DNA of 64,000 bases from Lachnospiraceae bacterium (GTDB lineage: Bacteria > Bacillota > Clostridia > Lachnospirales > Lachnospiraceae). The notes beneath the pieces are model-generated. The model made no database searches. It worked only from the letters and a program-made list of their open reading frames with translations, and was not told where the DNA came from. Positions 13,088 to 64,000 of this stretch are shown here, in pieces. Numbering within the stretch: position 1 is the first letter of the stretch; each line of letters opens with the position of its first letter. The position numbers were made by a program, and so were the translations under genes. Location: positions 1 through 64,000 of the forward strand of contig JAFXQX010000030.1 in assembly GCA_017526745.1 (NCBI GenBank), written 5' to 3'.

Positions 13088-13090
13088 GTA

Positions 13091-15992: not shown

Positions 15993-16013
15993 AGAGTCCC
16001 CTCCTAGCAACAT

Positions 16014-16042
16014 ATTGTATAATAACATGTAACAATTATCAA
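16014..16042 (-). promoter_or_regulatory. Sigma-A-like promoter of the flagellar operon
   Basis: On the minus strand, TTGATA and TACAAT are separated by 17 bases, each with one mismatch to consensus. The site is 22 bases upstream of the flgB start, downstream of the codY terminator. Confidence 0.65.
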
Positions 16043-20807: not shown

Positions 20808-20829
20808 AAAAAGCGACGTCCTACATCGC
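20808..20829 (-). terminator. Rho-independent terminator of the polysaccharide operon
   Basis: Minus strand GCGATGT-AGG-ACGTCGC (7-bp stem with one T-G pair) is followed by TTTTT. The left arm overlaps the last codons and stop of the preceding transferase gene. Confidence 0.75.
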
Positions 20830-22269: not shown

Positions 22270-22275
22270 TTCCCC

Positions 22276-25823: not shown

Positions 25824-25826
25824 GGC

Positions 25827-45902: not shown

Positions 45903-47972
45903 TCATCCCAACACATCCCTTATATCCGTCATTCTCCCAAAAAACGGATCCTCAACCTTCAATGACAGAAAGTCATCGTCAAGTATCCTTACCCTGTTTA
46001 CAAGCGCCAAAAGTGCCTCATCTAACGGCTTATTTACACTTCTAACACCTTCCGGAACTATCGAGATATAATCTTCAAAAAACTGTATGATCCCGGCCTG
46101 GGCTCGAACAAAGCAGCGAAGATCATTCTCGCTTCTTGTTTCCTTGGCATATACCGGGGCACCTTCATCATTAAACTCAAGCATCTGTGGGAAGGGCGCC
46201 GTAAGAATCGTCTCAAGTATATAGTAATTATCGAAGATTTGGCTTGTATCCTTCTCTGTATCTGAATAGAACGGCTCAATATCGAGACCCTTTTCTGCCA
46301 TGAACTCCGGCTCAAGTTGCAGGAAGTAGTATCCTTTCATGTGTCCTTCAAACATACGAGACAGATACATCTGTGTGGTTCCCTTGGCAACAAAATCAAA
46401 CATCACGGTATCAGCTCCGTTGATTCCAAGCGCATTAATATAATCCCTGTAATGCTCTCTCTGCTTCGCGGCCTTTTCCAGTATAGCCTCCTGTCTCGTC
46501 CCTGAAATCTGTGAAATATCGATTCCAAACCTCTTCATCGTCGCTTCTTCCACAGTCCCCGAATACTTCATACCGTCAACATATTCAATATCTTTCTCAT
46601 CTTTGACACCAGCACGTATCGCCACAGTTCTCGATGTTAGAAAATAGTATGAATGTGTGTCCGGATCAATCATTTCATATAATCTCTTTATCAGATACCC
46701 ATCCCTTGCACAAAACAATAGGTGCGTTTCATTATCAGTTGCCGCTTTTTCCCTCATCCAATGGACAAAATCCGTTATCATTGGCGCGCAGAACAGATAT
46801 CCGATATCATCCGAATCATTCACGCAAAGCCTTTGGTCGCTGTCCTCAAAAACAAATGGATTGTTAAAAATACGTGATATGAACATTCCAAGCTTAATCC
46901 TGTCCGGCAGCGTCCTCAAACGATCGTCAACTCCGAGTCCTCCAAGCGCATCATATAACTGCATGCCTCCATATATCCTAAACGTATCTATTCCCTGTTC
47001 GGATGCACTGTCAATATCAGCGATTTCGTCATCACCCACATGAAGAAGTTTTTTCCCCGGAAAATCCTTTTTCAGTTCATCAAACAAATGCTGCGTCTTA
47101 AGAGTATCGTATTCGGAAGACACATAGACCTTCTTATACCCGTTTATGCCCATCTTATTAAGGAGAAAACATATCTGCTCCTTATCATAATAACAATCCG
47201 ACGTGATAACAACATCCTTACCAAACTCCACCGCTTCTCGAAAAATCTCACAAACCTTTCGTCTCGGTGTCATAACGGCAAGGTCAGTCTCCCATTCAAT
47301 GCGGCTTAGTTCCTCTGCCGAGACCATACCACCTGGACACTGTTTATCATGATCCGCCTTGTCGAGTACTGCTTCATAAATATCTGTCAGCTTCGGAGAA
47401 CCTTTACGGGACAGTTCCTTTTCCGTCATTATCCGCAGCTGTGCAAGATCCGGTATCACGATGCCCTTATTTCTCAGCCTCATATCAACCAGTTCGAAGA
47501 CATCCGTATAATTGCAGACCTTTCTTGCTACAAGCGTATCAAACAGGTCGAAACTTACCACATCGGAAGCATCTATCTTTTGTTTCAGATCCGAAATACG
47601 ATAGCCTTCCACTCCGGAAAAATCATATGCCACATCACTTGGGGCAAGCAGGTCTTTTCCGCGGACATCAAATAATTCAATGTCGTTCTGTGCGCAAAAA
47701 TCCCCGATCCTTTTCGTGATAGCCTTGCAAGACCCCGGACGCGCAACAACTATGATACAGCCTACATTTTTTTCAATTGTATCTTCAATGGGAATGATCG
47801 GATATCCGTACATCGTGCCATCAGTACGAAATCCGTCAAGAAGACCGACAATGGACAACTCATCTCCATGGTCGGATAAGAAACGCTGTGTCTCGGTACC
47901 GAGACCATAAAGCGCTATTGTTCTATTTTTTAACAAACCAAAAAAGTCCGAATTCATATTTAACCGAATCAT
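45903..47972 (-). CDS. HAD-superfamily protein with N-terminal Rossmann-like module
   Basis: Last gene of the glycan operon (689 aa). Residues about 16-110 form the shared module (TIALYGLGTETQRFL, Asp in IVGLLDGF). A HAD domain follows with motif I VSFDLFDTLVARKV and motif IV HVGDDEIADIDSASEQG. A long C-terminal region, unassigned, follows. HAD proteins of this size occur in glycan clusters as phosphatases or possible transferases. Substrate is unknown. The start overlaps the DUF268 gene by 50 bases; a later ATG at 47957 is possible. No clear ribosome binding site. Confidence 0.8.
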   Translation of the reverse strand: MIRLNMNSDFFGLLKNRTIALYGLGTETQRFLSDHGDELSIVGLLDGFRTDGTMYGYPIIPIEDTIEKNVGCIIVVARPGSCKAITKRIGDFCAQNDIELFDVRGKDLLAPSDVAYDFSGVEGYRISDLKQKIDASDVVSFDLFDTLVARKVCNYTDVFELVDMRLRNKGIVIPDLAQLRIMTEKELSRKGSPKLTDIYEAVLDKADHDKQCPGGMVSAEELSRIEWETDLAVMTPRRKVCEIFREAVEFGKDVVITSDCYYDKEQICFLLNKMGINGYKKVYVSSEYDTLKTQHLFDELKKDFPGKKLLHVGDDEIADIDSASEQGIDTFRIYGGMQLYDALGGLGVDDRLRTLPDRIKLGMFISRIFNNPFVFEDSDQRLCVNDSDDIGYLFCAPMITDFVHWMREKAATDNETHLLFCARDGYLIKRLYEMIDPDTHSYYFLTSRTVAIRAGVKDEKDIEYVDGMKYSGTVEEATMKRFGIDISQISGTRQEAILEKAAKQREHYRDYINALGINGADTVMFDFVAKGTTQMYLSRMFEGHMKGYYFLQLEPEFMAEKGLDIEPFYSDTEKDTSQIFDNYYILETILTAPFPQMLEFNDEGAPVYAKETRSENDLRCFVRAQAGIIQFFEDYISIVPEGVRSVNKPLDEALLALVNRVRILDDDFLSLKVEDPFFGRMTDIRDVLG

Positions 47973-48903
47973 TTAGCACATCAGGATCAGCATCGTATTC
48001 AATATGGGTTCCGTAATCGATCGAATACTCCTTCAGATCGCATCTGTCAAACTCTTTAAATATGGTACGCGGTGAAAACACTCTGTGTGCATTAAACTCC
48101 ACGCCTTCCATGCCTACCGGCACTGCTATATATATTGAACCGCCTTCGGCAACCTTTTTCTGAATGGAATCAAAGCACTTAAAGCATGCCTCCGGGTCAA
48201 TCGGATCCCCATATCTTCCGAGGCCGAAGTGTTCAAGCGAACACAGGGCAGACAGGCTGTGTATCGAATCGTTTTCAATGGTCTCAAGCATTGTCGCATC
48301 CGACTGAGTAAAACTTACACCCGGTATGATCGCATCGAGCGGTCTTACATCAATAAGAGAAACCTTCTGTCCGAATGTCAAAAGGTTAGATATAAACCCA
48401 TCCACTCTCGATCCTATGTCGTAGTGTATATCAGGTCTTTCTTCAAACACATGTCGCGCACACCACAGATCCTGCCAAAAATAATGATTTACAGAGCCTG
48501 CCTGCGATACACGATCGATTGCAAAAAACTGCTTTCTGTCCGGATTGTAGGCAAATGATTTTCTCTTGTTTTGACTGTTATACTCTTTGGCCTCCTGCTC
48601 GATCATCTCGGCAGCGGCCTCATAAAACAACAGATACGGTATATTAAGTCTGCACAACACTTCTACAGCTTTGGTGATCTGTCTGACCCCTCTCCACGTC
48701 AAAACAACTGTATATTTTTCGGCGCAGTTCTTAAGTTTCTCTTCATCCTTAACGACAGGAATGGAAAGAATCTCATTTCCAGAATAAGACGGATCAAAAA
48801 AGAACTTGATCTCGTGTCTGTCCCCGAGAAATTTTGCGGCATTACAGCTCATTTCGTCGGTTCCGTACAGTATGTACTTTTTCCCTGTAGAGTTATTATC
48901 CAT
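47923..48903 (-). CDS. DUF268-like methyltransferase-fold protein with N-terminal module
   Basis: A 326-residue protein. The shared Rossmann-like module is at about residues 8-105 (KKYILYGTDEMSCN, Asp in KFFFDPS). A DUF268-like domain follows (HYDIGSRVDGFISNLL, SLCALEHFGLGRYGDPIDP-like region, VPVGMEGVEFNAHRVFSP). DUF268 resembles SAM methyltransferases (DIGSR in place of the glycine loop). It overlaps GT10 by 8 bases and the HAD gene by 50. Function is inferred as glycan modification. Confidence 0.8.
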   Translation of the reverse strand: MDNNSTGKKYILYGTDEMSCNAAKFLGDRHEIKFFFDPSYSGNEILSIPVVKDEEKLKNCAEKYTVVLTWRGVRQITKAVEVLCRLNIPYLLFYEAAAEMIEQEAKEYNSQNKRKSFAYNPDRKQFFAIDRVSQAGSVNHYFWQDLWCARHVFEERPDIHYDIGSRVDGFISNLLTFGQKVSLIDVRPLDAIIPGVSFTQSDATMLETIENDSIHSLSALCSLEHFGLGRYGDPIDPEACFKCFDSIQKKVAEGGSIYIAVPVGMEGVEFNAHRVFSPRTIFKEFDRCDLKEYSIDYGTHIEYDADPDVLNDSVKYEFGLFWFVKK

Positions 48904-50266
48904 TACACTTATCCAGAAGCTCCTGAATTGAGATTACTTTTGTATCACAAATGCTGAGTATGCTGTCCCTGATAATATCATACTCGGAAGAGACAGTAAC
49001 TATCACAAGATCAGGGGCGGACAGTTTGCCAAGTTCCGACAGTTTTATCGTTTTTGCATCAGTGCCGGAGTCGGATACGCGGTTATCTATGCAAAACGGT
49101 ATTGTGATATCATCGCGGCGCTTCAGATCTTCGTAAAGGATCTTCCCAATCCTGCCCATACCATAGACTGCAACAGAGGAAATATCAGTTTCTAAACCTT
49201 CACTTAAATTCCTTCCCTGTTGTATCAGCTCACACATTGAAGAGGCTATCTCAAAATTGACCTTGAATTTGTCGGTACCCGCCTGTCTTCCTATCCAAAA
49301 ATCTTTATAATGTCCTGGCCATGTCCCTTCAGGTTTTCTTTTTAAGGACTCAAGATCATCCGTAAACAGCTTTTGCAGGAATGAATAATAAAGATCACTC
49401 TCTTCTTTTTCTATCTTAAGCTGCTCATCACTCAGCCAAGGCTGCATGATCATCTGACACCAGAGCTCATCATCCTCATCGATCTGCCTGACCTTTTCAA
49501 GCGCTGTCTTGAAAGAATCCCGGTCGCTGCAACATATGATCGCTTCAGGGTTCAGATCTCTGTTTACAAGCGGGTTGCCCCAATATATCGGTATGGTCCC
49601 TGCCTCAAGGCTCGTATATACTTTTTCCGAAGTATATCCGGGAAAACATGCATTCTCAAATGCGATCGAAAATTTGTATCTGCTCTTTATATCGGTACTG
49701 TTTTTAACAAGAGCTGTAAGATCGTCTCCGCCGGAATCCACAAGTCCCATATTGTTAAGAAACGCGCCATACGAATCAACACGTTTATATTCCGATAATA
49801 TATCGAAAATCATCTTACGGTTGCTGTGGCCGTTCGGATTACTGTAAATAAAGTTACAGAAACCTTTCTTTTCATCAAGAAGCTTTTGGGCCTGAGCAGT
49901 GTCTTTTATTGGGTTTTCCCATTTTGTGATAAATGATGAAAGAAATCTTCTGTTCGGTCTTCTTACGATCCGGTCATCACTACCACGGCAGGCATATCCT
50001 ATCCCGTAATCAAATACATTTAGGTCGGGAAGAATGCACTCACCCGGTGCAAACACACAGATCGCAGCAGAAGAATACAGCCTCTTGAACTGCTCAAGCA
50101 TACCATGATCGGACAGTATACCCTCCGAAACGAACAAAATTTCCGGCTCTTTGTCATCCCAAACAAGATCATAGCTGTCGACATCTTTTTTATCAAAAAG
50201 AAGTGTTTGAGCAAGTCCCAAAACATCATTTATTCCCGGATATATTCCGTAAACCCTGCGTCCCAA
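48896..50266 (-). CDS. GT10 (fucosyltransferase-type) glycosyltransferase with C-terminal module
   Basis: Residues to about 300 form a GT10-like enzyme with the alpha-1,3-fucosyltransferase signature YKFSIAFENACFPGYTSEKV, then SLEAGTIPIYWGNPL. GDP-fucose is the usual donor, and this is inferred. From residue 364 the protein carries the shared Rossmann-like module (SVAVYGMGRIGKILYE, Asp in PFCIDNR). A helical QQGRNLSEGL segment precedes it and closely resembles the stand-alone protein at 60845-61246. Length 456 aa. Confidence 0.87.
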   Translation of the reverse strand: MGRRVYGIYPGINDVLGLAQTLLFDKKDVDSYDLVWDDKEPEILFVSEGILSDHGMLEQFKRLYSSAAICVFAPGECILPDLNVFDYGIGYACRGSDDRIVRRPNRRFLSSFITKWENPIKDTAQAQKLLDEKKGFCNFIYSNPNGHSNRKMIFDILSEYKRVDSYGAFLNNMGLVDSGGDDLTALVKNSTDIKSRYKFSIAFENACFPGYTSEKVYTSLEAGTIPIYWGNPLVNRDLNPEAIICCSDRDSFKTALEKVRQIDEDDELWCQMIMQPWLSDEQLKIEKEESDLYYSFLQKLFTDDLESLKRKPEGTWPGHYKDFWIGRQAGTDKFKVNFEIASSMCELIQQGRNLSEGLETDISSVAVYGMGRIGKILYEDLKRRDDITIPFCIDNRVSDSGTDAKTIKLSELGKLSAPDLVIVTVSSEYDIIRDSILSICDTKVISIQELLDKCNG

Positions 50267-50288
50267 TCTTATTCTCCCATCTAAACTA

Positions 50289-51434
50289 TCAGCCTTTGCT
50301 GTTTATCCTGTCGATAAGCCTGTTCCATCTACCAAGATCCGTCTCGTCAAGCCCGGCAATATTGGGCCTGTCTGTCTTCCTCGGAAGTGTGGAATCATCA
50401 AATTCAAACTCCTGCCCTGCATTTCTGACATATGTAAGTTCCATGCAATCTGCAAGTCTCAGCCCGTCAATCAGAGCATATTTTGAATAATTATTTGCAT
50501 GAACATGAATGAGTGAATGTGTTCTGCCAAGCCTTTCAAGGCATGCACCGTAGTATGCCCATCTGTCTGATCTCAATAGTCCATGTATCTCGAACACAAG
50601 CTGGTCGAACTGCTGAAGGAGCTTGTCATCAACCTTCTCAAAAAACTCCCATTCTCCTCCTTCTATGTCCATCTTAAGTATCATGCCCAAAAGACCGTCA
50701 TGTCCGTTTTGTTCCATCGCCTCATCAAGAGTACAGAAGATGGGATCATCAATTCTACTTCCCGTGATACCTTTTTTGAAGAAGTGAAACCTGTCATTTT
50801 CAAATGGAAGCTTATCCACCGTAAAATCATACATAAACAGATCATATCCGCGATCTGCCATATCCTTATCCCAGCTTATCTCATCGCCGATCCCTATCGA
50901 ATATGCTACCTTCCCGCATAGATCATCATGCATAACATATCCTCCGTCAGCATCTCCTCCGACGCGGATAAGGTTCATTTTGTCAAACCTATGGATCTTC
51001 ATGGGTGCAAGAAACTTTTTTAAATCCGACAGCTCAGTTGATGTCAGTTTTTGGGAATACACGGAACTATTATCAGATGAGTATGACACATACTCTTTCA
51101 TATGCGCAAAGGAATCTGCGCCTTCGAATGGAATGATCTTCCAAACGATAGCCCCGGCACCCCGGTCTTCAAGATCCGCTTTAACCTGGTCAGCCACATT
51201 CTTATTCTCTATTGCGATCACAACGGCATCTGCATCTGCGTAATCAATCTCATCCGGATGACACACCTTAACACCGTCTATACTAAGGCTGTCCTTCGAT
51301 CTGTCTGCAACACAGATGACCCTGCAATATCCTGTAAGCTCCAGCTGCTTTGCGTACTGCCTTCCAATGTTTCCTGCACCGTAAATGACTATGTCTGATC
51401 CCTGTTTGATCTTAGAAAAAGGAAATAAATACAT
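50289..51434 (-). CDS. FkbM-type methyltransferase with N-terminal module
   Basis: The module spans about residues 12-100 with a complete glycine motif (DIVIYGAGNIGRQYA) and Asp in VICVADRS. The C-terminal half is a SAM-dependent FkbM/Methyltransf_21-like domain (VGGDADGGYVM, KMDIEGGEWEFFEKV, QLVFEIHGLL). It would methylate a sugar of the glycan. Length 381 aa. Gap to the next gene 22 bases; same operon. Confidence 0.85.
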   Translation of the reverse strand: MYLFPFSKIKQGSDIVIYGAGNIGRQYAKQLELTGYCRVICVADRSKDSLSIDGVKVCHPDEIDYADADAVVIAIENKNVADQVKADLEDRGAGAIVWKIIPFEGADSFAHMKEYVSYSSDNSSVYSQKLTSTELSDLKKFLAPMKIHRFDKMNLIRVGGDADGGYVMHDDLCGKVAYSIGIGDEISWDKDMADRGYDLFMYDFTVDKLPFENDRFHFFKKGITGSRIDDPIFCTLDEAMEQNGHDGLLGMILKMDIEGGEWEFFEKVDDKLLQQFDQLVFEIHGLLRSDRWAYYGACLERLGRTHSLIHVHANNYSKYALIDGLRLADCMELTYVRNAGQEFEFDDSTLPRKTDRPNIAGLDETDLGRWNRLIDRINSKG

Positions 51435-51461
51435 TCTCTTACCCTCTGCCTATCTCTGATC

Positions 51462-52886
51462 CTATGATTTTAATCCGTAAAAATCATTAATGAGCTTTTT
51501 GATGTTTTGCCCAAACACTTCCATTGAAAAATGATCATCGTATATCTTTCTTGATCTTGCGCCTATATCCTTAAGGCTATCCTTATGATCGATACACCAT
51601 CGTATCTTCCTGCTAAGCCCCTCGGGATCATCGGAACTAAACACCAGACCGTCATATTCGTCCGTGATGTACGCAGAATTGCCGGCAGCATCAGAAACTA
51701 TACAAACCCTGCTATACTGCATCCCCTCGCATACGGATATCGGCATTACATCCTCTCTTGACGGACAAATAAGCAGATCAGCACTGCGTAGTTCCTTCAT
51801 TACACTGTCTCTGTCCATTAATGAACAGAACTCAATACAATTACCGAAGCTCGCAGACCTTGCCATCTGCTCCTTGGCATAAGCGCTGTTGTTGTTTCCT
51901 ATGATCCTGAAACATATCCTGTCTCTCTCGCTGTCAGTCAAAGATAATACCGCATCTACAAGAACATCCTGCCCTTTGTATTGCTGGACATTTGCAAGAA
52001 CAAGCGCTGTGAGTTTATCATCTGTGCCCAGATCTTTTGTTTGTGCAAGGTACTTCTCATCGACATCAGGGAGTCCATATAAAAGCAGTTTTACATCAAT
52101 TTGCGGATTGTATTTTTCAAATGCCTTCGCTGCAAGCGGTCCCGCCGCACACACAACTATATCGTCAAAATCGATCGAACGTAATCTTTTTATATCAAGA
52201 GAATCGTAAAAGCACGGAGGCTCATGCAGCCACCATATGATCTTTGATCGCCCCGCTCTATTCGACAAAAAGCGGTAGTAATGGATCGTGTTGCAGATGA
52301 TATACAAAAAACCATTTATCCAGGAAATACCGTCGGCAGTATCTATCTCCAGATTGGGATCTACTATAACCGGGATGTTGATTTTTACAAGTTCATCTCT
52401 TATGACTCCGTCATGCCATGATGCAAACACGACTCTAAACCCTGCCTTGCAAAGAGTTTGTGCGGCATAAAACAGCACCATTGTGGCACCATTATTATCA
52501 AGATTCGGCGACATAAGAAGAAGCGTGTTATCTGTCCCTTTTTGAACCAATGATGAATTATCCGATTCGGGTGCATAAACCTTAACGGGAGCCTTTGGAT
52601 TAAGAATGTCTTTTCTGTCAGGAAGTTCACTGCTGCCGATGATATCGCTTTCTCTTACACCCATTTTCAGAAGCTGCTGTCTCATCTGAGGCTCGTGAAC
52701 GCTTAATATCACTATAAGATCATATTTAAGAGAACTGATTTTCTCAGGCGAATAAACCGTATGACCGTCAATGATTTTCCCCTGCTTGCCGGTGTCGTTA
52801 TCAAGCAGACCCACGATCAGATCATCCCTGATCCATCTCTTATATTTACTGTAATAATCACCCAGTCCAAAAATCAGTAATCTCAT
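51462..52886 (-). CDS. GT4 family glycosyltransferase with N-terminal module
   Basis: Residues 1-95 are the shared module with a degenerate glycine motif (MRLLIFGLGDYYSKY) and Asp in IVGLLDND. The rest is a GT-B enzyme of GT4 type: LTALVLANVQQYKGQDVLVD and the donor-site region DLLICPSREDVMPISVCEGM. It would transfer a sugar from a nucleotide donor to the growing glycan in the cytoplasm. Length 474 aa. No membrane segment. Confidence 0.88.
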   Translation of the reverse strand: MRLLIFGLGDYYSKYKRWIRDDLIVGLLDNDTGKQGKIIDGHTVYSPEKISSLKYDLIVILSVHEPQMRQQLLKMGVRESDIIGSSELPDRKDILNPKAPVKVYAPESDNSSLVQKGTDNTLLLMSPNLDNNGATMVLFYAAQTLCKAGFRVVFASWHDGVIRDELVKINIPVIVDPNLEIDTADGISWINGFLYIICNTIHYYRFLSNRAGRSKIIWWLHEPPCFYDSLDIKRLRSIDFDDIVVCAAGPLAAKAFEKYNPQIDVKLLLYGLPDVDEKYLAQTKDLGTDDKLTALVLANVQQYKGQDVLVDAVLSLTDSERDRICFRIIGNNNSAYAKEQMARSASFGNCIEFCSLMDRDSVMKELRSADLLICPSREDVMPISVCEGMQYSRVCIVSDAAGNSAYITDEYDGLVFSSDDPEGLSRKIRWCIDHKDSLKDIGARSRKIYDDHFSMEVFGQNIKKLINDFYGLKS

Positions 52887-52915
52887 TTATCTTACCAAGA
52901 TAGTTTTGTTTATGA

Positions 52916-54007
52916 TCACTCAAACCGGTCCAGAAGCTTTGCAGCCTTCTCGAGCTTCTGCCGGGCCTTTGTCTTTTCTGCCGAGCTCACCCATGATCCG
53001 TCAAAATGATGGATGGCATAAGTGTTCTCTGATATCCTGAGTTCTCCTGTATATGGATTCTTAGGAGACAAAACATCGACAGGATATACGGAAAGCCCAT
53101 TGAAATTCTGAAAATCCGCGCTTTCTTTCATTCCCATTTCGCTCAGAATGCGGCTCTGGATAACGGGGCTGGGGGTCATGTCATATGATCCATCAGGATT
53201 TACAAAATGATTTGTTTCATAGTAATTCATCATTTTGCGCATTATCTCATTGTGCCTTGCCGCTCCAAATCCAAGACCAAACGCAACAATCCCGGGGAAT
53301 TCCATACCACAAAATGCCTCATTATATCGCAGATCATCGAGACTCTTTATAATCTCAACATCTGTATCAAGATATATACCGCCTTCTTCAAATATGATCT
53401 TCAACCTGAAATAATCAGGTACAAATCCATACTTTCCGGCTTCATAGGCTTCTTTTGTAAAGTCAGTTTCCGTTATATCAAGATTATTCTCGTTCCACTC
53501 TATGATCTCATAGTCCAGACAGAACCTCTTCCAACTGTCAATGTTCTCCTTATATTTTTCCGGCAAAGGATTTTTACCAAGCCAACAATAGTGTATCTTA
53601 GCCGGGATCCTGATATCCTCGGCCTGTTTGATATCGATCTTTCCATCACTCATATTGAACATGCAGTGGAACACATAACAATCTATATCATCGAGCCATG
53701 AATACCCGTTTAGTTCCTCTACGATTTCTGCAAAAGCGGCACATGTCGGCAGTATTACGATTTCGCTTAAAGATATTTTTTTTAGATCTTCAAGTGTTAT
53801 TACATTGAACTCTTTATTACCTATCCAAACAGACTCGCCTTTTTTATTCGGACTGTTATCAAGCAGATAACCTATCCTGTCTATCCATTCATAACCTTGA
53901 TACGCATGGATGATCTGTTCAAATTCGTGTCCTATTCCATAGCAGACTATTTGTTTTTCACGAATTTGCTGTGTAAATTCCTTCAATCTACATCTTTTTA
54001 ATCTCAT
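52916..54007 (-). CDS. GT32-type glycosyltransferase with N-terminal module
   Basis: The module is at about residues 17-115 (KQIVCYGIGHEFEQI, Asp in GYLLDNSP). The catalytic part has the capsular-polysaccharide/DXD glycosyltransferase motifs IPAKIHYCWLGKNPLPEKY and FEEGGIYLDTDVEIIKSLDD. Length 363 aa. Acceptor and donor are unknown. Confidence 0.87.
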   Translation of the reverse strand: MRLKRCRLKEFTQQIREKQIVCYGIGHEFEQIIHAYQGYEWIDRIGYLLDNSPNKKGESVWIGNKEFNVITLEDLKKISLSEIVILPTCAAFAEIVEELNGYSWLDDIDCYVFHCMFNMSDGKIDIKQAEDIRIPAKIHYCWLGKNPLPEKYKENIDSWKRFCLDYEIIEWNENNLDITETDFTKEAYEAGKYGFVPDYFRLKIIFEEGGIYLDTDVEIIKSLDDLRYNEAFCGMEFPGIVAFGLGFGAARHNEIMRKMMNYYETNHFVNPDGSYDMTPSPVIQSRILSEMGMKESADFQNFNGLSVYPVDVLSPKNPYTGELRISENTYAIHHFDGSWVSSAEKTKARQKLEKAAKLLDRFE

Positions 54008-54021
54008 GGTTTCCTTTCGAG

Positions 54022-55596
54022 TTATAAATAATCCATTATTCGATCAGCGACAAAAGAAAAATAATATTCATTATAATGTTCGGGAACCACGCCATATTTA
54101 AATAACTCATCAGTATACTTCAGGTGATCAGGAATATCCGCAAATCTTATGATGTTGATTCTGTCGGATCTATCTTCAAGATACTTGTAGTAATCGGACA
54201 GCATTTTGTTTATTACCGAAACATCATCTTTATGCTTTTTGTCTTGATTGTAGATATTACCAATACGCTCCGAAAGATAATTCTCGACAAGAACAACCTT
54301 GCAACTATCATCCAGTTCATTAATCACATTAATAAACCTATCACATGACTCTTTCCATAGTTTTTCGCATTCTTCACTATTCCTCGAAATAATATTGAAC
54401 TCCGAAAAATCGTTTCTTGACAAATCCAAACCATCACTGTATGTATAGTAACAGCCGTTACATTCCATGATATCGAATCGTTCCTCAAGAAGATCGATCA
54501 GCAATAAATCCGGTGGTTGCCGGCGGACATCACTTATCAATGACCCTTGAAAATCTTTTTCAACCATTCTTTGACGGTATTCGTTACATGCTATCGGCTT
54601 ATGTTTTTCGTTTTTATCCGACATTATCGAGATAATGCTGGAAAAACTGAATCTTACATTTCCTATATCAGCTGCAGTGATATAATTGGATATGCGTCCA
54701 AGGCTGTATCCACCCATAGCTACAACTCTCCTGTTCAAAGAGTTGATCTCGTGTGAGAAGGCCGACCTGAAAAAAGACGCCCCGTATCTTTTTAACTGTT
54801 CCGCGGTTTTATCATCAACATGAGGAACTATTGCCCTGAAACGCATATTGGCGTGCGGAGTAAGTTCGCGATACAGTTCCTCGAATGCACTGTTTGAAAA
54901 CTCTCTTTCTTTATATTCATTTGACAGCATCTCAAAAACCGAAAACAATTCCTTGAATTTCTCGACATCTTTTTGCGCACTGTCCGTAAAACTTCCATTT
55001 CTGATCCTATAATGGTATAAAGGCTCTCCCAGAAAGAAATAACTGTCACAAACGCGATACATGATTGAATAAAGGAACAGATCCTCCGCTACCGTATTGG
55101 AAAAACACAGTTTTTCCCTGTCCCAGAAACTTTTTCTATACATCTGTTTCCAGCAGGCAGGCGCAGCCAGTTTTCTGATAAAGTCCAAACCGATTCGCAC
55201 ATAAGGACTGTTCCCGCCTATATGCTCACATCCGTTCTCCTCCCAATAAAAATCGCATTCCACGATATCTGCATTGTCAGACACCATTTTATCAAGCATC
55301 TTTTCAACGTAATCCGGTTCAACCCAGTCATCCGCATCAACAAAACAGATATATTCACCTTTTGCTTCTGCTACGCCCTGATTCCGTGCATCTCCCGCGC
55401 CGCTTTTTTTCTGTCGGACTATCCTGATTCTGTTATCAGTTTGCGCAAATCGATTGCAGATTTCCGGGCACTTATCATTACTGTCCCCCATTACAATGAT
55501 TATCTCTAAATCATCAAAAGTCTGAGCAATGACCGAATTCAGGCATTGCTCTATAAACTCTTCTGTTTCAAATACAGGAATAATAACAGAAACCAT
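54022..55596 (-). CDS. GT2 glycosyltransferase fused to DUF6270-like domain
   Basis: The N-terminal 230 residues are a GT2/GT-A enzyme (VSVIIPVFETEEFIEQCLNS, YICFVDADDWVEPDYVEKM). The C-terminal 230 residues (MGGYSLGRISNYITAADIGN, PDLLLIDLLEERFDIME, then a late YFSFVADRIMDYL) resemble DUF6270, an SGNH-like domain found in glycan clusters. It lacks the Rossmann-like module of its neighbours. Length 524 aa. Confidence 0.83.
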   Translation of the reverse strand: MVSVIIPVFETEEFIEQCLNSVIAQTFDDLEIIIVMGDSNDKCPEICNRFAQTDNRIRIVRQKKSGAGDARNQGVAEAKGEYICFVDADDWVEPDYVEKMLDKMVSDNADIVECDFYWEENGCEHIGGNSPYVRIGLDFIRKLAAPACWKQMYRKSFWDREKLCFSNTVAEDLFLYSIMYRVCDSYFFLGEPLYHYRIRNGSFTDSAQKDVEKFKELFSVFEMLSNEYKEREFSNSAFEELYRELTPHANMRFRAIVPHVDDKTAEQLKRYGASFFRSAFSHEINSLNRRVVAMGGYSLGRISNYITAADIGNVRFSFSSIISIMSDKNEKHKPIACNEYRQRMVEKDFQGSLISDVRRQPPDLLLIDLLEERFDIMECNGCYYTYSDGLDLSRNDFSEFNIISRNSEECEKLWKESCDRFINVINELDDSCKVVLVENYLSERIGNIYNQDKKHKDDVSVINKMLSDYYKYLEDRSDRINIIRFADIPDHLKYTDELFKYGVVPEHYNEYYFSFVADRIMDYL

Positions 55597-55630
55597 AAAA
55601 TATCCTCTTGCCTGTGATCAAGAATTTGCT

Positions 55631-56827
55631 TTACGCTGTCAAATATACCTGATCAAGGTCTTTTTGAAATAAACGAGTGATCATCTTGCCGAAAAGCTCA
55701 GAGCATTTTACATAATCCTCATTTATCCTATAACCCTTTTCTTCCAGCTTCATTTCTATTTCTTCTTCATACACCAACGAAGAAATAATAACATAATCAT
55801 CCGACGGATCGGCGAAGAACTCATCCGGTGTTACAACGCTTTTTACGCCGACATCTTCTGCTTTCACTTTAACGTCAATTATCCGTTTAAGAGATATTTG
55901 TTCCGATTGAATTAATGTAGATAAAATATGTCCGTATTTTCCATACCCCCAGATCGATACCGTTTTACCCGTAAGCATTTCGCGGATCGAAGCGCCCAGC
56001 AACAACAATTCATCTTTTTTGATCATACTGTCAATAACAAAATCCAGTTTTCTTTTAAATGTATAATTATCACAAAACCGTATTACAGCCTCATCAACAT
56101 CCCCTTTCGAAAACACGTAAGGTTTCCATACTTTATTCCATGGCTCTCTTGGCCATCCGTGGCATCCAAACGGAAGATCATCAGGAAACTCCGAAAACCT
56201 TTTTTTATCATAAGCCTCCATAGAAAAACGACTTGCCAGATCTATCGGCGGAACCGAAAAATCGATGTCTTCAGAATTACCACAGTACCCCCAAAACTCG
56301 TCTTCTCCAACTTCAAAAATTTTCCCCATTCCGGTTCTATGATAGATTTTTTCCTTTTCGGTCAGTATTCGTAAACAACTACTGATCTTTCTAAGTGAAA
56401 AGCCACCATTACCCACACAGTATTCCTCCGTAGGTCCTAGTGCCTCATAAATATTTCTCCATAAATACTTCGGTAGCGGAGCACCTATATAATCAAACCC
56501 AAGATCACAAAACTCCTTTAGTCTGTCAGAGAACACATAAACATCCAGTTGATGAAGCAGCATGTATTTGTAGTCAGCAAATCTGCGGTATAATTTCTCA
56601 CTCAGCATCAGACGGCTGTATGCATCTCTCCCGTCAAAATCAGAATCGTCAAAGCATACAGTCTCGACACCACTCAAGTATCCGATTTTTTCTTTCAGTC
56701 TTCTCGGGGCAATAATATAAATATCATAATGCCCCAAAATGTTTATCAGCCTGTCAAAGGAAATCCGCTCATTCTCATCAAATTCGGCTTTATAGCACGG
56801 AACAACAATACAAACTTCATATTTCAT
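55631..56827 (-). CDS. DUF5672-type glycosyltransferase with C-terminal module
   Basis: The N-terminal part matches DUF5672 proteins, thought to be GT-A-like (VCIVVPCYKAEFDENER, YKYMLLHQLDVYVFSD, GFDYIGAPLPKYLW, VGNGGFSLRKIS). From residue 288 it carries the shared module with an intact glycine pattern (VSIWGYGKYGHILST, Asp in LKRIIDVK). Length 398 aa. Gap to the next gene is 2 bases. Confidence 0.82.
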   Translation of the reverse strand: MKYEVCIVVPCYKAEFDENERISFDRLINILGHYDIYIIAPRRLKEKIGYLSGVETVCFDDSDFDGRDAYSRLMLSEKLYRRFADYKYMLLHQLDVYVFSDRLKEFCDLGFDYIGAPLPKYLWRNIYEALGPTEEYCVGNGGFSLRKISSCLRILTEKEKIYHRTGMGKIFEVGEDEFWGYCGNSEDIDFSVPPIDLASRFSMEAYDKKRFSEFPDDLPFGCHGWPREPWNKVWKPYVFSKGDVDEAVIRFCDNYTFKRKLDFVIDSMIKKDELLLLGASIREMLTGKTVSIWGYGKYGHILSTLIQSEQISLKRIIDVKVKAEDVGVKSVVTPDEFFADPSDDYVIISSLVYEEEIEMKLEEKGYRINEDYVKCSELFGKMITRLFQKDLDQVYLTA

Positions 56828-56829
56828 GG

Positions 56830-58041
56830 TTAAATCATTACCTTTGACAGCTTCTCCTGAAAATCTTTACCATCCAAAGCCATTCTTTCAAACAACATAC
56901 TGACAATTTGCCCTATAAGATTGTTCTCCTCTTCTATATCAATAAAATCAGACAACTCAAACCTCTTTTTCTTTTTCATAAGCACCGTAACATATTGATC
57001 GCTTCTTTTAGTCGAATCACTGCAGCAGACTTTAATTTCCGCGATTTCATTTAGTTCTTCGGAAATATTGATAGCATTTTCTTTATTCCAAATTATGAAA
57101 TCACCTTCTATGCAATCGAAGTTCCATTTATGCAATCCGGACCAATTCTCATGTACGGCTTCAGCCTTTCTATGTCTCAGTTTGATAATGCCATTTACCT
57201 TTACGGTATACAGGCACTTGATCAACCCTCTGTACGGATCAAAAGAATGATCCATTGAATTGCTTATGTACATGCATTTTGCATAGTTTTCCCCAAATAG
57301 ATTTGAAATTAATTCAAACATTCCGAAATAGCAATAGTATGTCCTCTCTATTGCCAATTCATCCCTGGCATTCATCAAATTATAATAATATGCCAAAGGA
57401 TCCACAGGAATCAGGTTTATGAAACCATCTGGTATCTTCTCACCAAAACCAGTCATCAGTGCGCAGCCAATATCCATTACCACATCACCGTCTTTAACCA
57501 CCCCCGCCAGGTCGGGTTCCTCAAAAAGGAGTTCTCTTCTGTTCGTTCTTCGAGATTGTTTTAAAAAAGGGGCACTTTCTGCATTTCTATCAAGTCCGTA
57601 CTCCAACCAAAAGTTTATCTCACTATCAAGGTTGCTAAGCCAAATGCGAAATGCTTCCAACAAATCAACCTTCCACCTGAACACCATTTTATTATAGAAT
57701 TGTTCTAATTCAGTCCTTTCAACATGATCTCTTATATATTCAATATCAGTAATAGCCTGAGTTTTACCCGGAAATTCAGAATTAATAATTCCCAGTATTT
57801 CCCTGCGAGCTTCACGTGAATTAACACCAATTACAACTCGGATCGAATCGTCATCCCGGCACAGTTTGATTGCCTCATCCTTACTGATAATGTCCAGATC
57901 TAAATATTGTGTGCCAACTTTTTTCGAATCAGAATCACAAAGAGCGAACACTGTGAATTTATCTTTTCGGAGAATATCCACCAGATAAGCCGCATGCCTT
58001 CCTGCTCCATAAACGATACATTTTTTCATTTGATTCCTCAC
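56830..58041 (-). CDS. Methyltransferase-like protein with N-terminal module
   Basis: The module is at about residues 5-110 (KKCIVYGAGRHAAYLVDI, Asp in FALCDSD). The C-terminal part looks like a SAM methyltransferase fold (GDVVMDIGCALMTGFGEKI, VDPLAYYYNLMNA, SNSMDHSFDPYRGL). I do not know a named family. Length 403 aa. The pairing of DIGC with the SNSMDH segment is typical of methyltransferases, so modification of the glycan is inferred. Confidence 0.78.
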   Translation of the reverse strand: MRNQMKKCIVYGAGRHAAYLVDILRKDKFTVFALCDSDSKKVGTQYLDLDIISKDEAIKLCRDDDSIRVVIGVNSREARREILGIINSEFPGKTQAITDIEYIRDHVERTELEQFYNKMVFRWKVDLLEAFRIWLSNLDSEINFWLEYGLDRNAESAPFLKQSRRTNRRELLFEEPDLAGVVKDGDVVMDIGCALMTGFGEKIPDGFINLIPVDPLAYYYNLMNARDELAIERTYYCYFGMFELISNLFGENYAKCMYISNSMDHSFDPYRGLIKCLYTVKVNGIIKLRHRKAEAVHENWSGLHKWNFDCIEGDFIIWNKENAINISEELNEIAEIKVCCSDSTKRSDQYVTVLMKKKKRFELSDFIDIEEENNLIGQIVSMLFERMALDGKDFQEKLSKVMI

Positions 58042-58071
58042 ATAACAGTCTCGAAACTCTTTTGCGCCCCT

Positions 58072-59214
58072 CTAAGACTCTTTTGTTTTACAATGGTTTC
58101 TAACCTTCACCAAGCTTGAACCATAAATATATCCTCTTATAGGAGCAACCATTCCCTTTGAAAAACCACATTTCCACAAACAATATGTAAATGATAGCTG
58201 ATCTCTGCAGCTGTGATTCATGACCTCATTCCACCATTTTTCCATCAGTTTCTTCATTTGTGTATCATGTTTCCTAAACAGTACTCCTGTTTCATACAAT
58301 CCATAATGACTAGGCATCCGTTCGCGTATGTATCCGAACATCTGATTCAGTATAACTTCTTCCTTGTCCATGCGTTCAAAAACGCAGACCATTCCCTCCG
58401 TATATAGACAGTCATATCTGGAGTGAGGATAAATCGAAATCCATGTTTTTTCCCCAATCATATCACGTACGAATTCGTACATGGCATCCTTTATTGACAT
58501 ACTTCCATCAACATATAAACTGTATTCATAGTTTGAAAACATGGCGCATCCGAGTATCTTGCATAATCTGGCTCTTCTGACCGGATCTAAAGATTCCCTT
58601 GGAATGATTCCATTAAGATCAATCCATTTCATCCCATATCCATCATGAGGCGGATTATCCGAAACGCAATAATAATCACACATATCAGTATCATATACAT
58701 GTTCAGCTTCCGCATCATAATTACCGGATATGCATGTATATACAGCAATTCTCTTTTTTCCCGGATTCTCCAAAATCGGGAACTTATAGCTCACATCAGT
58801 ACCGGTTACGTCTTGCTCAGCTATATCATGAATCGAAATCGCTTTTTTTCTGTAAAATGCTTCAACAAGTTCATCCGAAAAACGAATTTCATCCCACGTT
58901 ACAACATCCGATGGAGTATTATCTGATATCTGTTTTACAATATCATCAACCTTCTCTCCCTCTGCGAGCACAAAAAAAAGAACCCCTTTTCTATCGAATA
59001 ATTCTCTTGGCGATCGACATACAATCCCATTCTTTATAGTCCTCCCCCACATCATCGGATCATTATCGCAAAAACAAGTCGGGAATATGTCCAGCATCTG
59101 AAGTGCATCCCAGCCTTTTCCTTTTGCGATAAACCCGCATCCCCATATGCATATTTCAGAGTACAATTCACTCCTGCATGCATCAATCTTATTTTTCAAT
59201 GATTTTTGTTCCAA
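58072..59214 (-). CDS. DUF616 glycosyltransferase-like protein with N-terminal module
   Basis: The module is at about residues 18-115 with a degenerate motif (EICIWGCGFIAKGKG, Asp in TCFCDNDP). The catalytic part matches DUF616 (RIAVYTCISGNYD, ARLCKILGCAMFSNYEYSLY, VDGSMSIKDAMYEF), a family related to glycosyltransferases. Length 380 aa. It overlaps the amidotransferase gene by 26 bases. Confidence 0.83.
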   Translation of the reverse strand: MEQKSLKNKIDACRSELYSEICIWGCGFIAKGKGWDALQMLDIFPTCFCDNDPMMWGRTIKNGIVCRSPRELFDRKGVLFFVLAEGEKVDDIVKQISDNTPSDVVTWDEIRFSDELVEAFYRKKAISIHDIAEQDVTGTDVSYKFPILENPGKKRIAVYTCISGNYDAEAEHVYDTDMCDYYCVSDNPPHDGYGMKWIDLNGIIPRESLDPVRRARLCKILGCAMFSNYEYSLYVDGSMSIKDAMYEFVRDMIGEKTWISIYPHSRYDCLYTEGMVCVFERMDKEEVILNQMFGYIRERMPSHYGLYETGVLFRKHDTQMKKLMEKWWNEVMNHSCRDQLSFTYCLWKCGFSKGMVAPIRGYIYGSSLVKVRNHCKTKES

Positions 59215-60832
59215 GAAACAGTTCCTCTATTCTTTCCTGAGGCATAACACCCATTCCAAAAAAAGATTCGGGAATAGTGAACCCTTCTTTTCTTCTGTTG
59301 ATCAGATTATGTGGGAGTTCACTATTATATGCATTCTTTAAAACATATTTGAGTATACCGTTTGGGCACCTCTCATTCTGCGAAAGCGAAAAAGCATACT
59401 CTATAAGTTTTTTCGAAAGGAACGGAACCCTGACTTCCAGAGAATTGGCCATAGATACTCTGTCGGTTTTGGGCAGAATATCATCCGACAGATATGTATA
59501 GAATTCCATATACTGCATCCTGGTAATGGGCGGAAGATCCTTGTGATAGTGCTTTCTCAGAAACCAAAACATGTCATAATCATCACTTATTCCTAATCTT
59601 TTTTTCAGCTTTTTATGTTCGGGAAGGGGCCTGAACACATACCATTGATATATAAATTCAAGATCTTCATCAACTGTGGTCTTCCTTCCTGATTCAAAAT
59701 CTTTCAGACGTAGATGTCTCGGATATCCGGCAAACAACTCATCGCCACCTTCTCCCGAAAGCATTACTTTACACTTCTTCTTTGCCTCTCTTGAAACTAT
59801 AAATGTAGGATAGGCAGATGTATCAGCAAATGGTTCGTCATACCACTCTTTAAGATTATTGTACAGATCTCGGAACTCATTTTTTTTAACGAAGTATTTA
59901 TTCCCGTTAAACCCGTACTTTTCCTCAAGGCATCTGACGTAAGGTAATTCGTTATTTCTATGGTCATAAAATCCGATGGAAAACGTCTGATATGAATCTG
60001 TTTTTGCCAAAGCCTCAACCGTAATGATACTCGAATCCATACCACCACTAAGGAACCCCCCCACGGGAACATCGGCAACAAGTTGTTCTCCGATCGACTC
60101 TGAAACCAGCTCTTTTACAGTTCCTAACTTGTCATATATGATCTCATTACCTTCTTCTGCATTCGGTTTCAGGCTCCAAAATGAAGCATTACTTTCAACA
60201 GCACCTCTTTCATAGTCGTAAACCAACTCACAAGCCTGTTCCAATTTGAAGACATCCTTATATATTGTTTTGGGTGCCGGAATACACAGAAAATTATAAA
60301 AATCCAGAATTGCCGTATTATCGATCTGAAGAGAAGTGTCATTTATTAGGCTGGTAATAGCCTTAAGCTCAGAGGCATAAGCAAAGTCTCTGCCATTATA
60401 ATAATAGTAAAGAGGCTTGATGCCAGCTATATCCCGGAAAAGCTTAAGTTTTTTTTCACGTCTGTCAAGTATTGCAATGGCATACATCCCATCAATATGC
60501 TCGACAAATCTGTCTCCCCATTCCAGGTATGAATTGAGTATTACTTCACTGTCCGTTGTTGATCTGAAGGAATACCCTTTTTCCATAAGATCATTTCGAA
60601 GCGGCTCAAACCCATATATCTCTCCGTTAAATGTCAATGCCACGCTATGGCTTGTATCCTCCATAGGTTGCATCCCGTTATCAGAGAGATCTATGATTGA
60701 TAACCGGACAAATCCCATGGTAAAATCATCAAAGCAATTAATCCTCTTACCATCCGGTCCCCGGTGTACAATAGAGTTCAATGCTTTCTTATAATTCCAT
60801 GTTTTCTTTGTCCCGCCAAGGATTCCACACAT
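59189..60832 (-). CDS. asnB: Asparagine synthase-like glutamine amidotransferase
   Basis: The N-terminal glutaminase has the catalytic Cys2 (MCGILGG) and RGPDG. The C-terminal ATP-PPase has SGGMDSSIITVEAL and LSGEGGDELFAGYPRH. Length 547 aa. In glycan clusters such enzymes amidate uronic acids or other sugars, as well as making asparagine. A glycan role is inferred from context. It lacks the shared module. Confidence 0.88.
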   Translation of the reverse strand: MCGILGGTKKTWNYKKALNSIVHRGPDGKRINCFDDFTMGFVRLSIIDLSDNGMQPMEDTSHSVALTFNGEIYGFEPLRNDLMEKGYSFRSTTDSEVILNSYLEWGDRFVEHIDGMYAIAILDRREKKLKLFRDIAGIKPLYYYYNGRDFAYASELKAITSLINDTSLQIDNTAILDFYNFLCIPAPKTIYKDVFKLEQACELVYDYERGAVESNASFWSLKPNAEEGNEIIYDKLGTVKELVSESIGEQLVADVPVGGFLSGGMDSSIITVEALAKTDSYQTFSIGFYDHRNNELPYVRCLEEKYGFNGNKYFVKKNEFRDLYNNLKEWYDEPFADTSAYPTFIVSREAKKKCKVMLSGEGGDELFAGYPRHLRLKDFESGRKTTVDEDLEFIYQWYVFRPLPEHKKLKKRLGISDDYDMFWFLRKHYHKDLPPITRMQYMEFYTYLSDDILPKTDRVSMANSLEVRVPFLSKKLIEYAFSLSQNERCPNGILKYVLKNAYNSELPHNLINRRKEGFTIPESFFGMGVMPQERIEELFLGTKIIEK

Positions 60833-60844
60833 TTTCGTAATCCT

Positions 60845-61246
60845 TTATACATCCATATCATAAACAAGCTGCGTAATAGAAATTGTTGGTCTGCCAAGTG
60901 TTCTTTCTATATCCTTGTGTATCTCATCATACAGATAAGGTAGTGTCACAATAACAATATCCGGTTTTTTGTTTGGTGGAACTTCATCTAATTTATAACA
61001 GTCAATATCAAAATATAGTTTCGGACTTCCCTGGTCCAAAGCATAAAGAAGTCGAACGGTTTTACTGTCCTTAAGCTCACGAACAACACAGTTCCCCAAA
61101 TCATTCATACCATAAACAGCAACGCTGTTATAACCCAACGCCTTGAGATAGTCCTCCATTTTTCGCCCGTTTTGCTTAGCAACCAAAAACTGGAGAGCGG
61201 CATTATAGTTCTCGTAATATGCATGTAATTGCTTTTCATCCACCAT
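60845..61246 (-). CDS. Stand-alone Rossmann-like module protein
   Basis: A 133-residue protein with an N-terminal helical segment (LVAKQNGRKMEDYLKAL) and then the shared module (SVAVYGMNDLGNCVVREL, Asp in LLYALDQG, IVIVTLPYLYDE). It has no catalytic partner domain. It resembles the C-terminal end of the GT10 protein more than the other modules. It lies between the amidotransferase and GT2 genes. A scaffold or regulatory subunit of the assembly enzymes is inferred. Confidence 0.8.
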   Translation of the reverse strand: MVDEKQLHAYYENYNAALQFLVAKQNGRKMEDYLKALGYNSVAVYGMNDLGNCVVRELKDSKTVRLLYALDQGSPKLYFDIDCYKLDEVPPNKKPDIVIVTLPYLYDEIHKDIERTLGRPTISITQLVYDMDV

Positions 61247-61252
61247 ATATTA

Positions 61253-62386
61253 TTACTTCCTGTATACATGCGCCGGAACCGAAAAACTCTCGACTCCAAT
61301 GTTTATCAGTTCGTTCATCACGTCCAGCATCTTATCATTCCCCACCGAAAGAACCAAATGAAATCCTCCCTCATCCAACTTTCTTAACATATCTTGCGGA
61401 GAAAGAATGATAATGCCTTCCTTCACTGTTCCCCACTTGTTCTTATCTTTATCAGCGAAATAGACTACCCGTTCAGACAATTCGTTTTTTATTACCCCTC
61501 CAATATGACCGGATCCGTAGAGTATTATGTTGCTTCCCGGTGGAATTTCTTTATCATGAATAATTGGGGCACATATTCCGGAAAATTTGGAATTAATATC
61601 GTCAAATTCTATATCCCTGTATTTAAGCATAATACTGTAGAAAAGCATGAGTTGAGTCGGGGATTCTTTTATATTGTTCAATATCCAATCCAAATACTTT
61701 AGATATAATCGTTTATTCTTTTCCTTGACCTGATCCGCCTTTCCAACCGCCAACGAAGCATCATGTAATCTGTAAAGATAGAATACCCCGGGAATATAGC
61801 CAATCTTTTTCCCGTAATACAACATACGCAACCAATATTCATAATCCTCGGCGCAAAAAAGAGTTGTATCATATTCTCCCATCTGATCAAGAACCTCTCG
61901 TCTATACATAAAACAGGCTCCAACAACATCCCCCGTATACATATCCTGTTCAATATACGGTAGTGCCTCATAAAGAAACTTCTTTTTATCATCAACAAAA
62001 AGGAAGCCTGTGCATACCATACTGTAATGGTCATTGCGATCCAAATACTCATTCATTACTTCTAACGCGCGAGAAAGGAACCAATTATCATCCGACGTCC
62101 ATGTCAGGTACTTACCTCGTGCATGTCTGAAGCCAATATTCAAAGACTCAGGTAATTGTTTATTGGTTTCATTATGTATAACTCTTATCCTGTTATCAAT
62201 TTCTTCGTAGTGCCTGGCAATTGACAACGTATCATCCGTAGAACAATCATCTACAATGATCAATTCCCACTCTGTAAAAGTCTGTCTCAAAATACTGTCA
62301 ATTGATTCACAGATATAATTAGCTCTGTTGTAAGTCGGCATCACAACCGAGATCTTAGGGGTGTTCATTTTACCGTACCTATCCAT
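61253..62386 (-). CDS. GT2 glycosyltransferase with C-terminal module
   Basis: The GT-A domain has ISVVMPTYNRANYICESIDS, the DDCSTDDTL acid pair and LTWTSDDNWFLSRALEV. From residue 284 it carries the shared module (NIILYGSGHIGGVI, Asp in VVYFADKD). Length 377 aa. It overlaps the preceding toroid-methyltransferase gene by 22 bases. Confidence 0.87.
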   Translation of the reverse strand: MDRYGKMNTPKISVVMPTYNRANYICESIDSILRQTFTEWELIIVDDCSTDDTLSIARHYEEIDNRIRVIHNETNKQLPESLNIGFRHARGKYLTWTSDDNWFLSRALEVMNEYLDRNDHYSMVCTGFLFVDDKKKFLYEALPYIEQDMYTGDVVGACFMYRREVLDQMGEYDTTLFCAEDYEYWLRMLYYGKKIGYIPGVFYLYRLHDASLAVGKADQVKEKNKRLYLKYLDWILNNIKESPTQLMLFYSIMLKYRDIEFDDINSKFSGICAPIIHDKEIPPGSNIILYGSGHIGGVIKNELSERVVYFADKDKNKWGTVKEGIIILSPQDMLRKLDEGGFHLVLSVGNDKMLDVMNELINIGVESFSVPAHVYRK

Positions 62387-63999: not shown

Positions 64000-64000
64000 A

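Follow-up and report, generated by a model that had tools for sequence, protein, structure and literature searches.

A Rossmann-like module carried by most proteins of a Lachnospiraceae glycan operon: a possible docking and control domain

Introduction

It is still debated how cells arrange their soluble glycan enzymes at the membrane and keep them in balance. The group of domains to which the module described here is related is already known, as is one regulatory member of it. The closest precedent is the PF13727 domain of the large phosphoglycosyl transferase WbaP, for which both a dimer interface and a response to uridine nucleotides are reported (PMC10942596). This domain makes up most of the WbaP dimer interface, and thermal shift of the isolated domain identified uridine mono-, di- and triphosphate (UMP, UDP and UTP) as potential stabilising ligands, with UDP-Gal being destabilising. 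WbaP itself is reported to be inhibited by UMP, for which the authors proposed feedback control, and the same report calls it puzzling that two unrelated classes of glycan enzyme have common N-terminal domains (PMC10942596). A model of EpsZ has an activating response regulator touching the corresponding domain (PMC12802240). In addition, a PglD-type enzyme is reported to touch ribose with the Asp of strand 2 and uracil with the Asp that follows (PMC8040287). Here, we describe a Rossmann-like module in an operon of a Lachnospiraceae bacterium (assembly GCA_017526745.1, contig JAFXQX010000030.1). The window, that is the whole stretch of 64,000 nucleotides analysed, comprises positions 1-64000 of this 101-kb contig; the minus-strand glycan operon occupies 45.9-62.4 kb and continues past the window end.

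The module is fused to unrelated partner enzymes, as had been proposed in an original prediction made from the letters of the window, and it recurs as an operon-wide trait in related genomes. We suggest, with a probability of roughly 45%, that these modules serve as an operon-wide docking and control module of the nucleotide-binding type, which gathers the enzymes of a pathway.

Results

One module family in the operon

The original prediction was that 11 of the 14 proteins of the operon (g01 to g14) share a segment. All 11 segments were located, but the count fell short by one, as g01, the fourteenth protein, also has an N-terminal module. A hidden Markov model (HMM), built from 104 modules of other genomes only, was used to scan 217 six-frame open reading frames of at least 80 residues from the window and the contig extension. 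It finds all 11 window segments at E values of 1e-19 to 8e-6, with the top unrelated frame at E=0.1. When the window modules were shuffled 15,000 times, the highest score was 13.3 bits, versus 20.0 bits for the weakest segment (g13). As the 104-module set was seeded by the window modules, the test is independent in sequence and not in discovery. In a leave-one-out test, which used the other ten window modules only, 10 of the 11 were recovered at E<0.05, with g14 being missed (E=3.6). Judged by these profiles, a single Rossmann-like family accounts for all 11 segments, which are not scattered over unrelated families.

When the segments were cut out and aligned, the predicted arrangement was borne out: the module is N-terminal in seven proteins, C-terminal in three and stand-alone in one. 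The Asp at the end of strand 2, said to be present in all 11, is so, and together with the first loop Gly it forms the sole invariant columns of the alignment. Two other explanations of the likeness were rejected. Chance similarity is ruled out by the other-genome HMM and the shuffles; ordinary dehydrogenase domains do not fit segments of ~90-110 residues, and the Pfam matches of the window operon include no oxidoreductase partner.

All genes of the operon lie on the minus strand, and the module E values that follow come from the other-genome HMM. The stand-alone module protein g03 (60845-61246; E 2e-12) has 133 residues, and immediately downstream of it lies g04 (59189-60832), an asparagine-synthase-like amidotransferase that is module-free. 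The second module-free gene, g08 (54022-55596), encodes a family 2 glycosyltransferase (GT2) with DUF6270. C-terminal modules follow the GT2 of g02 (61253-62386; module 61256-61531, E 2e-13), the DUF5672 of g07 (55631-56827; module 55634-55966, E 9e-13) and the GT10 (PF00852) of g12 (48896-50266; module 48899-49180, E 8e-13). N-terminal modules precede a methyltransferase (PF08241) in g01 (62365-64000, with an open frame to contig 64224; module at contig 63895-64176, spanning the window end, E 4e-19), TOD1_MUCI70 (PF04765) in g05 (58072-59214; module 58867-59157, E 7e-10) and Gly_transf_sug/Caps_synth in g09 (52916-54007; module 53666-53956, E 2e-7). The same holds for the GT4-type g10 (PF00534; 51462-52886; module 52602-52883, E 6e-19), the FkbM-type methyltransferase g11 (50289-51434; module 51087-51398, E 1e-19), whose PF05050 match of 21.7 bits is just below the cut-off of 22.7, and the DUF268 (PF03269) protein g13 (47923-48903; module 48610-48882, E 8e-6), in which the loop is the degenerate YGTDEMS. 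The partner parts of g06 and g14 match zero Pfam families at E<=1. By eye, the C-terminal part of g06 (56830-58041; module 57724-58023, E 3e-12) is methyltransferase-like, and in g14 (45903-47972, 689 residues; module 47628-47924, E 3e-8) the haloacid dehalogenase (HAD)-like label is that of the original prediction, with the motif FDxFDTL spotted by eye.

Past the window end, three more module proteins (contig 65396-67090, 67165-68277 and 68296-69336) comprise a GT2, a methyltransferase and one protein without a Pfam family above cut-off. The operon total is thus 15 module proteins, plus a related PF08484 domain in a C-methyltransferase (contig 70770-71987, or L001:7771-8988 in our locus numbering), which matches the other-genome HMM at E=1e-9; this similarity suggests a common origin of PF08484 and the module. 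RmlC-like, epimerase and C-methyltransferase genes adjoin the window operon. An 11-row profile gave only three weak matches in the own genome outside the operon (E 0.004-0.04) and also failed to pick up the module of 65396-67090. With a 114-row profile, 15 of 15 own-genome matches at E<=1e-8 fall within the module operon.

Recurrence in related genomes

The arrangement was found again in related genomes. Twenty fetched clusters together with the window contig hold 121 module proteins at E<1e-4 when the PF08484 protein is counted with them, and these are 77 N-terminal, 39 C-terminal and 5 stand-alone. A scan with relatives of g14 gave at least 79 loci with 404 module proteins at E<=1e-3, mostly in Lachnospiraceae and also in Paenibacillus, Cohnella, Propionispira, Selenomonas, Brachyspira, a Spirochaetaceae and a Rhodocyclaceae genome. 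Overall, the module is on 523 of 1,574 genes at 100 loci, which were selected for module matches or a g14 relative and whose genes were called crudely from long reading frames, so that the fractions are not genome-wide rates. At least three module genes are present at 81 of the 100 loci, at least eight at 25 and none at 8; at one locus of Lachnospiraceae bacterium A4 the module is on 14 of 14 genes. Module genes also run together, with a sum of 350 versus a shuffled-order mean of 237.6 and maximum of 267 (500 shuffles).

Presence of the module on the g14-type anchor goes with its presence on other genes of the locus. Where the g14-type anchor has a module (65 loci), 318 of 931 other genes carry one, with at least one other in 63 of the 65 loci. 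At the 12 loci with a module-free anchor, the figure is 13 of 142; others occur in 3 of 11 such loci once L076, whose called frame looks broken, is left out (Fisher 4e-7).

Genome-wide, matches at E<=1e-6 number 60 in Lachnospiraceae bacterium A4 and 42 in Dorea sp. 5-2. A match is present in 76 of 99 relatives (E<=1e-3) and in 94 of 249 phylum-drawn genomes (E<=1e-8), tallies that overcount, since many single matches are in proteins of ~220 or ~630 residues and are probably Rex or CapD by length. Crude motif checks of the 525 module proteins turned up a single hexapeptide-like protein and zero CapD-like ones.

This recurrence bears on the idea that the module is a folding or stability domain with no common role, spread through repeated gene fusion. 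Glycan enzymes often have fused domains, and modules as divergent as these (~20% identity) would suit such an origin. Nevertheless, presence on the majority of enzymes in some entire operons would be unexpected of it, as would the kept Gly and Asp and the stand-alone copies described below, and we regard it as hardly likely.

Several side observations were made at these loci. IspD-type, ribulose-phosphate-3-epimerase-type and zinc alcohol dehydrogenase genes occur in 29, 19 and 14 of the 100 loci (for example L060:12922-13659, L090:8469-9131 and L052:14265-15470) and in none of the 8 module-free loci, which suggests CDP-polyol polymers at some loci. An 842-residue protein (L078:5654-8182) with no Pfam family at E<=0.001 belongs to a cluster with members in 12 loci, 92% of them no more than two genes from a module gene. 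Propeller-like proteins, recognised by eye and without a Pfam family above cut-off, lie in or beside module operons (L001:1241-2350, L085:1858-3012). L049:15473-17131 and L038:8538-10421 are possible double-module proteins, as each has an additional module match that is weaker than the first (E 0.002 and 2e-5, respectively).

Fold and relatives

The predicted structure of g03 (predicted local distance difference test, pLDDT, 95.4; predicted TM-score, pTM, 0.90) has helices at residues 4-25 and 30-36 and a Rossmann-like domain. The model is similar to Rex, to N-domains of the CapD type and to the WbaP regulatory domain, with Foldseek alone giving weak TM-scores of ~0.5. Profile matches are to VioB (1.4e-7), the C-methyltransferase TylC3 (0.024) and PerB (0.039). 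The likeness to PglD_N and NAD-binding domains that had been proposed is thus supported and, on profiles and the model, the module family is best placed in the PglD_N, CapD-N, WbaP-domain and Rex group, which is of the nucleotide-binding type.

The top PglD_N (PF17836) match among the window modules, g06, scores 25.9 bits as an open frame and 22.8 as the annotated protein against a cut-off of 23.4; the remaining window modules are under the cut-off or unlisted. The NCBIfam NeuD/PglB/VioB model matches 7 of the 104 related proteins at E<=1e-5, and PF22674 (C2185-like_N) gives 17.7 bits for g10 and 12 for g11, under its 27-bit cut-off. PF13727 has zero Pfam matches in the window module proteins at E<=1 and is not among the 25 of 26 families listed for the 15 operon segments. 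Neither it nor GFO_IDH_MocA is among the 25 of 58 Pfam families listed for a random 100 of the 404 module proteins.

These relatives raise the alternative that the module grips the nucleotide part of a nucleoside diphosphate (NDP)-linked substrate, which in its bold form would mean that a nucleotide carries part of the glycan while this part is being assembled or tailored. C-methyltransferases have a domain that grips the nucleotide part of their NDP-linked substrate, and the VioB, TylC3, PerB and PF08484 matches all agree with such a role, as does the frequency of tailoring enzymes among the partners. PglD-type N-domains are reported to hold UDP via two Asp (PMC8040287); in the modules, however, the second Asp is mostly another residue, usually Asn. 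The model of g02 (57 sequences), whose pTM of 0.80 is not decisive, also weighs somewhat against a grip. In it, the GT2 and the module are both confident and the linker between them (~residues 211-280) has confidence of mostly 60-79, which argues little for a rigid hold on the substrate but is compatible with one. Moreover, glycosyltransferases possess a donor site of their own. Substrate grip is considered improbable.

Partner enzymes and module position

The module is fused to a wide range of enzymes. Single linkage divides the 496 fused partners into 97 clusters, one of which is a chained cluster of 202 and 50 of which are singletons. The 104 related proteins match 50 Pfam families at E<=1e-4, with overlapping families counted apart, and these include GT2 (21), radical S-adenosylmethionine (SAM) proteins (12), FkbM (9), CDP-glycerol glycerophosphotransferase (5), LicD (4), DUF4422 (4) and pyruvyl transferase (2). 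The random 100 of the other 404 proteins match 58 families, with RgpF and PIG-L being new.

Within a partner family, the end that carries the module is nearly constant. When clusters of at least two members were considered and the chained cluster was left out, 43 of 46 were purely N- or purely C-terminal, versus a shuffled mean of 19.8 and maximum of 30 (2,000 shuffles); descent alone could account for this. Sharing a partner type makes modules a little more similar to one another (z 3.6, reached by 1 of 2,000 shuffles). N- and C-terminal modules as two families were considered and rejected, as no difference between them was seen (z -0.5).

Stand-alone copies

Stand-alone proteins, defined as those of fewer than 190 residues, make up 29 of 525 module proteins. 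Of those with both neighbours known, 18 of 21 adjoin a module-free, co-directional gene, as compared to 263 of 462 fused genes (p 0.011). Among the 21 distinct module-free neighbours, 11 have module-fused homologues and 10, g04 included, have none; for the 1,030 remaining module-free genes, the number with such homologues is 198 (p 8e-4). One split and fused pair is provided by WbsX. At locus L116 a module-free WbsX enzyme is followed 29 bases on by a stand-alone module, and at L037 an enzyme of the same Pfam family and the module form a single protein.

g03 belongs to one stand-alone family (E 3e-19). In an alignment of ten rows of this family, picked by hand after viewing, nine have an N-terminal hydrophobic stretch, followed by a helix and the module. 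The Kyte-Doolittle hydropathy over 19 residues (KD19) of the stretch is 1.36-2.63, with four rows at or above 1.9. In a partly overlapping second set, the stretch is present in 10 of 15 at a 17-residue value (KD17) of at least 1.4. Such copies may insert into the membrane. Together, the split and fused pairs, the module-free neighbours and the hydrophobic family point to action of the module in trans. A separate idea, that the stand-alone module is a mate of asparagine synthase only, was rejected, as the single other AsnB homologue found lies at a locus (L119) that shows no stand-alone module.

Stand-alone copies that adjoin module-free enzymes weigh against the main rival, in which the module is a cis-acting sensor only, binding a pathway-derived nucleotide such as UMP or UDP and inhibiting or activating its own catalytic domain with no complex being formed. 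This rival finds its precedent in the WbaP domain, with its potential uridine-nucleotide ligands and the UMP inhibition of the enzyme (PMC10942596). It is also consistent with the retention of Gly and Asp in most modules, the greater likeness of modules of the same partner type and the constancy of module position, even if common descent could suffice for the last. Against it, the low-confidence linker of g02 gives little reason to expect a rigid contact in cis, the Asp is missing from ~10% of modules, and methyltransferases and radical SAM proteins carry the module as well; to our knowledge, these enzymes do not release UMP. Sensing purely in cis is thus somewhat unlikely, and docking with control remains the preferred explanation.

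Conserved residues and candidate ligand

The first loop Gly is retained in 517 of 534 modules (97%), the strand-2 Asp in 448 of 530 (85%) and both Gly plus the Asp in 369 of 530, values that carry a letter bias, as the search model partly favours Gly and Asp. Stand-alone modules have the Gly in 27 of 27 and the Asp in 25 of 29. These retained residues, together with the UDP-sugar, NAD or uridine-nucleotide binding of related domains, are evidence that the module may bind a ligand. The position after the Asp is mostly Asn in the N- and C-terminal types, or Lys in the stand-alone type, and as it is most often Asn, binding of uracil is not assured. A polymer-specific sugar was rejected as the ligand, as neighbouring gene sets differ between loci. 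Where Val replaces the Asp, it is often followed by Ser or Thr (for example L088:16320-17399, a DUF4422 protein, and L045:12342-13448), and this subclass possibly has another ligand or none.

The likeness to Rex raises the alternative of redox or energy sensing via NAD(H) or coenzyme A (CoA). A ligand is not identifiable from Rossmann fold matches, however, and GxGxxG has its third Gly in only 121 of 339 N-terminal, 116 of 165 C-terminal and 21 of 27 stand-alone modules. Redox sensing is regarded as quite improbable.

Other genes of the window

A separate glycan gene group at 20821-27511 contains exopolysaccharide initiation genes, one of which (20821-22269, minus strand) encodes a large phosphoglycosyl transferase (Bac_transf) that is WbaP-like and contains the related PF13727 domain. 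By eye, a heptose-type kinase and nucleotidyltransferase, CpsD, Wzz and CpsB are also encoded there. A flagellar cluster, mostly on the minus strand, lies at 210-16028 with fliM-, motAB-, flgE-, fliK-, fliI-, fliG- and fliF-like genes, again by eye. MptE-like (PF01973), a family linked to flagellin glycosylation, is matched by 3 of the 104 related module proteins.

Discussion

The docking and control reading would operate as follows. Most enzymes of a surface-glycan pathway would carry a copy of the module at whichever end their catalytic domain permits, and enzymes without a fused module would be served in trans by a stand-alone copy. Contacts between modules would then bring together, in one complex, transferases and tailoring enzymes that are soluble by themselves. 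These contacts would probably be gated by a bound nucleotide, with a uridine nucleotide as first guess. At some loci, a hydrophobic stand-alone copy would hold the complex at the membrane, where the lipid-linked glycan is assumed to be built.

Several observations weigh against this reading. Of the 29 stand-alone proteins, seven start right where a fetched stretch begins or ends, so that they may be fusions cut short, and three are in L076, where the frames are apparently broken. The hydrophobic stretch is a minority feature, with a KD19 of at least 1.9 in 4 of the 29; the hydropathy thresholds were chosen after the sequences had been viewed, and g03 itself has no such stretch. The g03 family is matched in only 23 of 245 genomes at E<=1e-12, several of them via fused proteins. 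In 51 modules (~10%) the strand-2 Asp is Val, and the association with the g14-type anchor is confounded by descent of the anchor. Finally, modules of the same locus are barely more alike than those of different loci (z 1.7, reached by 104 of 2,000 shuffles), so that no operon-specific docking code is apparent; such a code, like gene conversion, was rejected on this ground.

A description of the module was not found in the open-licence literature of PMC, as judged by titles and the starts of abstracts, and the term 'Rossmann' was not found in PMC12419801. In our loci, a domain related to that of WbaP is present on ~97 partner clusters, sometimes on most genes of an operon. As natural stand-alone copies can be expressed, mixed and assayed, docking and nucleotide sensing can be told apart directly. 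If docking is true, the module would be a tag for building glycan assembly lines. A broader and more doubtful proposal is that of a general recruitment code, in which, across many Bacillota and in some Spirochaetota, a nucleotide-gated Rossmann module would unite the enzymes of entire surface-glycan pathways in complexes tethered to the membrane. This code would extend to glycosyltransferases, methyltransferases, radical SAM proteins, LicD, pyruvyl transferase and HAD-like proteins, with the module acting in trans where it is unfused. If true, it would be comparable to the carrier and recognition domains that unify other assembly lines.

Comparison with known systems

PglD_N, which is found in the PglD, NeuD, VioB and PerB acetyltransferases, has the same strand-2 Asp and overall pattern as the modules, whereas its second Asp is mostly replaced in them. 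In addition, Pfam shows no left-handed beta-helix acetyltransferase, the partner of PglD_N, in the window operon, and Hexapep is matched by 2 of the 104 related module proteins and by 2 of the random 100. PF13727 (CoA_binding_3), which is present in WbaP and PglF/CapD-type dehydratases, shares its fold with the predicted module structure. In WbaP it follows four transmembrane helices, whereas the module proteins have no four-helix bundle by hydropathy, with even one 19-residue window of KD>=1.9 occurring in just 18 of 496 fused proteins. Furthermore, PF13727 is found on two enzyme classes and the module on dozens of partner families and in stand-alone copies. The NAD(H)-binding domain of Rex is like the module in fold and profile; no DNA-binding partner was seen among the module proteins, in which GxGxxG is often incomplete. 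The C-terminal PF08484 domain of C-methyltransferases is a longer model (160 positions) than the module, and we know of it only inside these enzymes. Finally, and as an analogy only, the recognition elements of ribosomally synthesised and post-translationally modified peptides (RiPPs) offer a parallel, in that a single small domain is common to many unrelated enzymes of one pathway.

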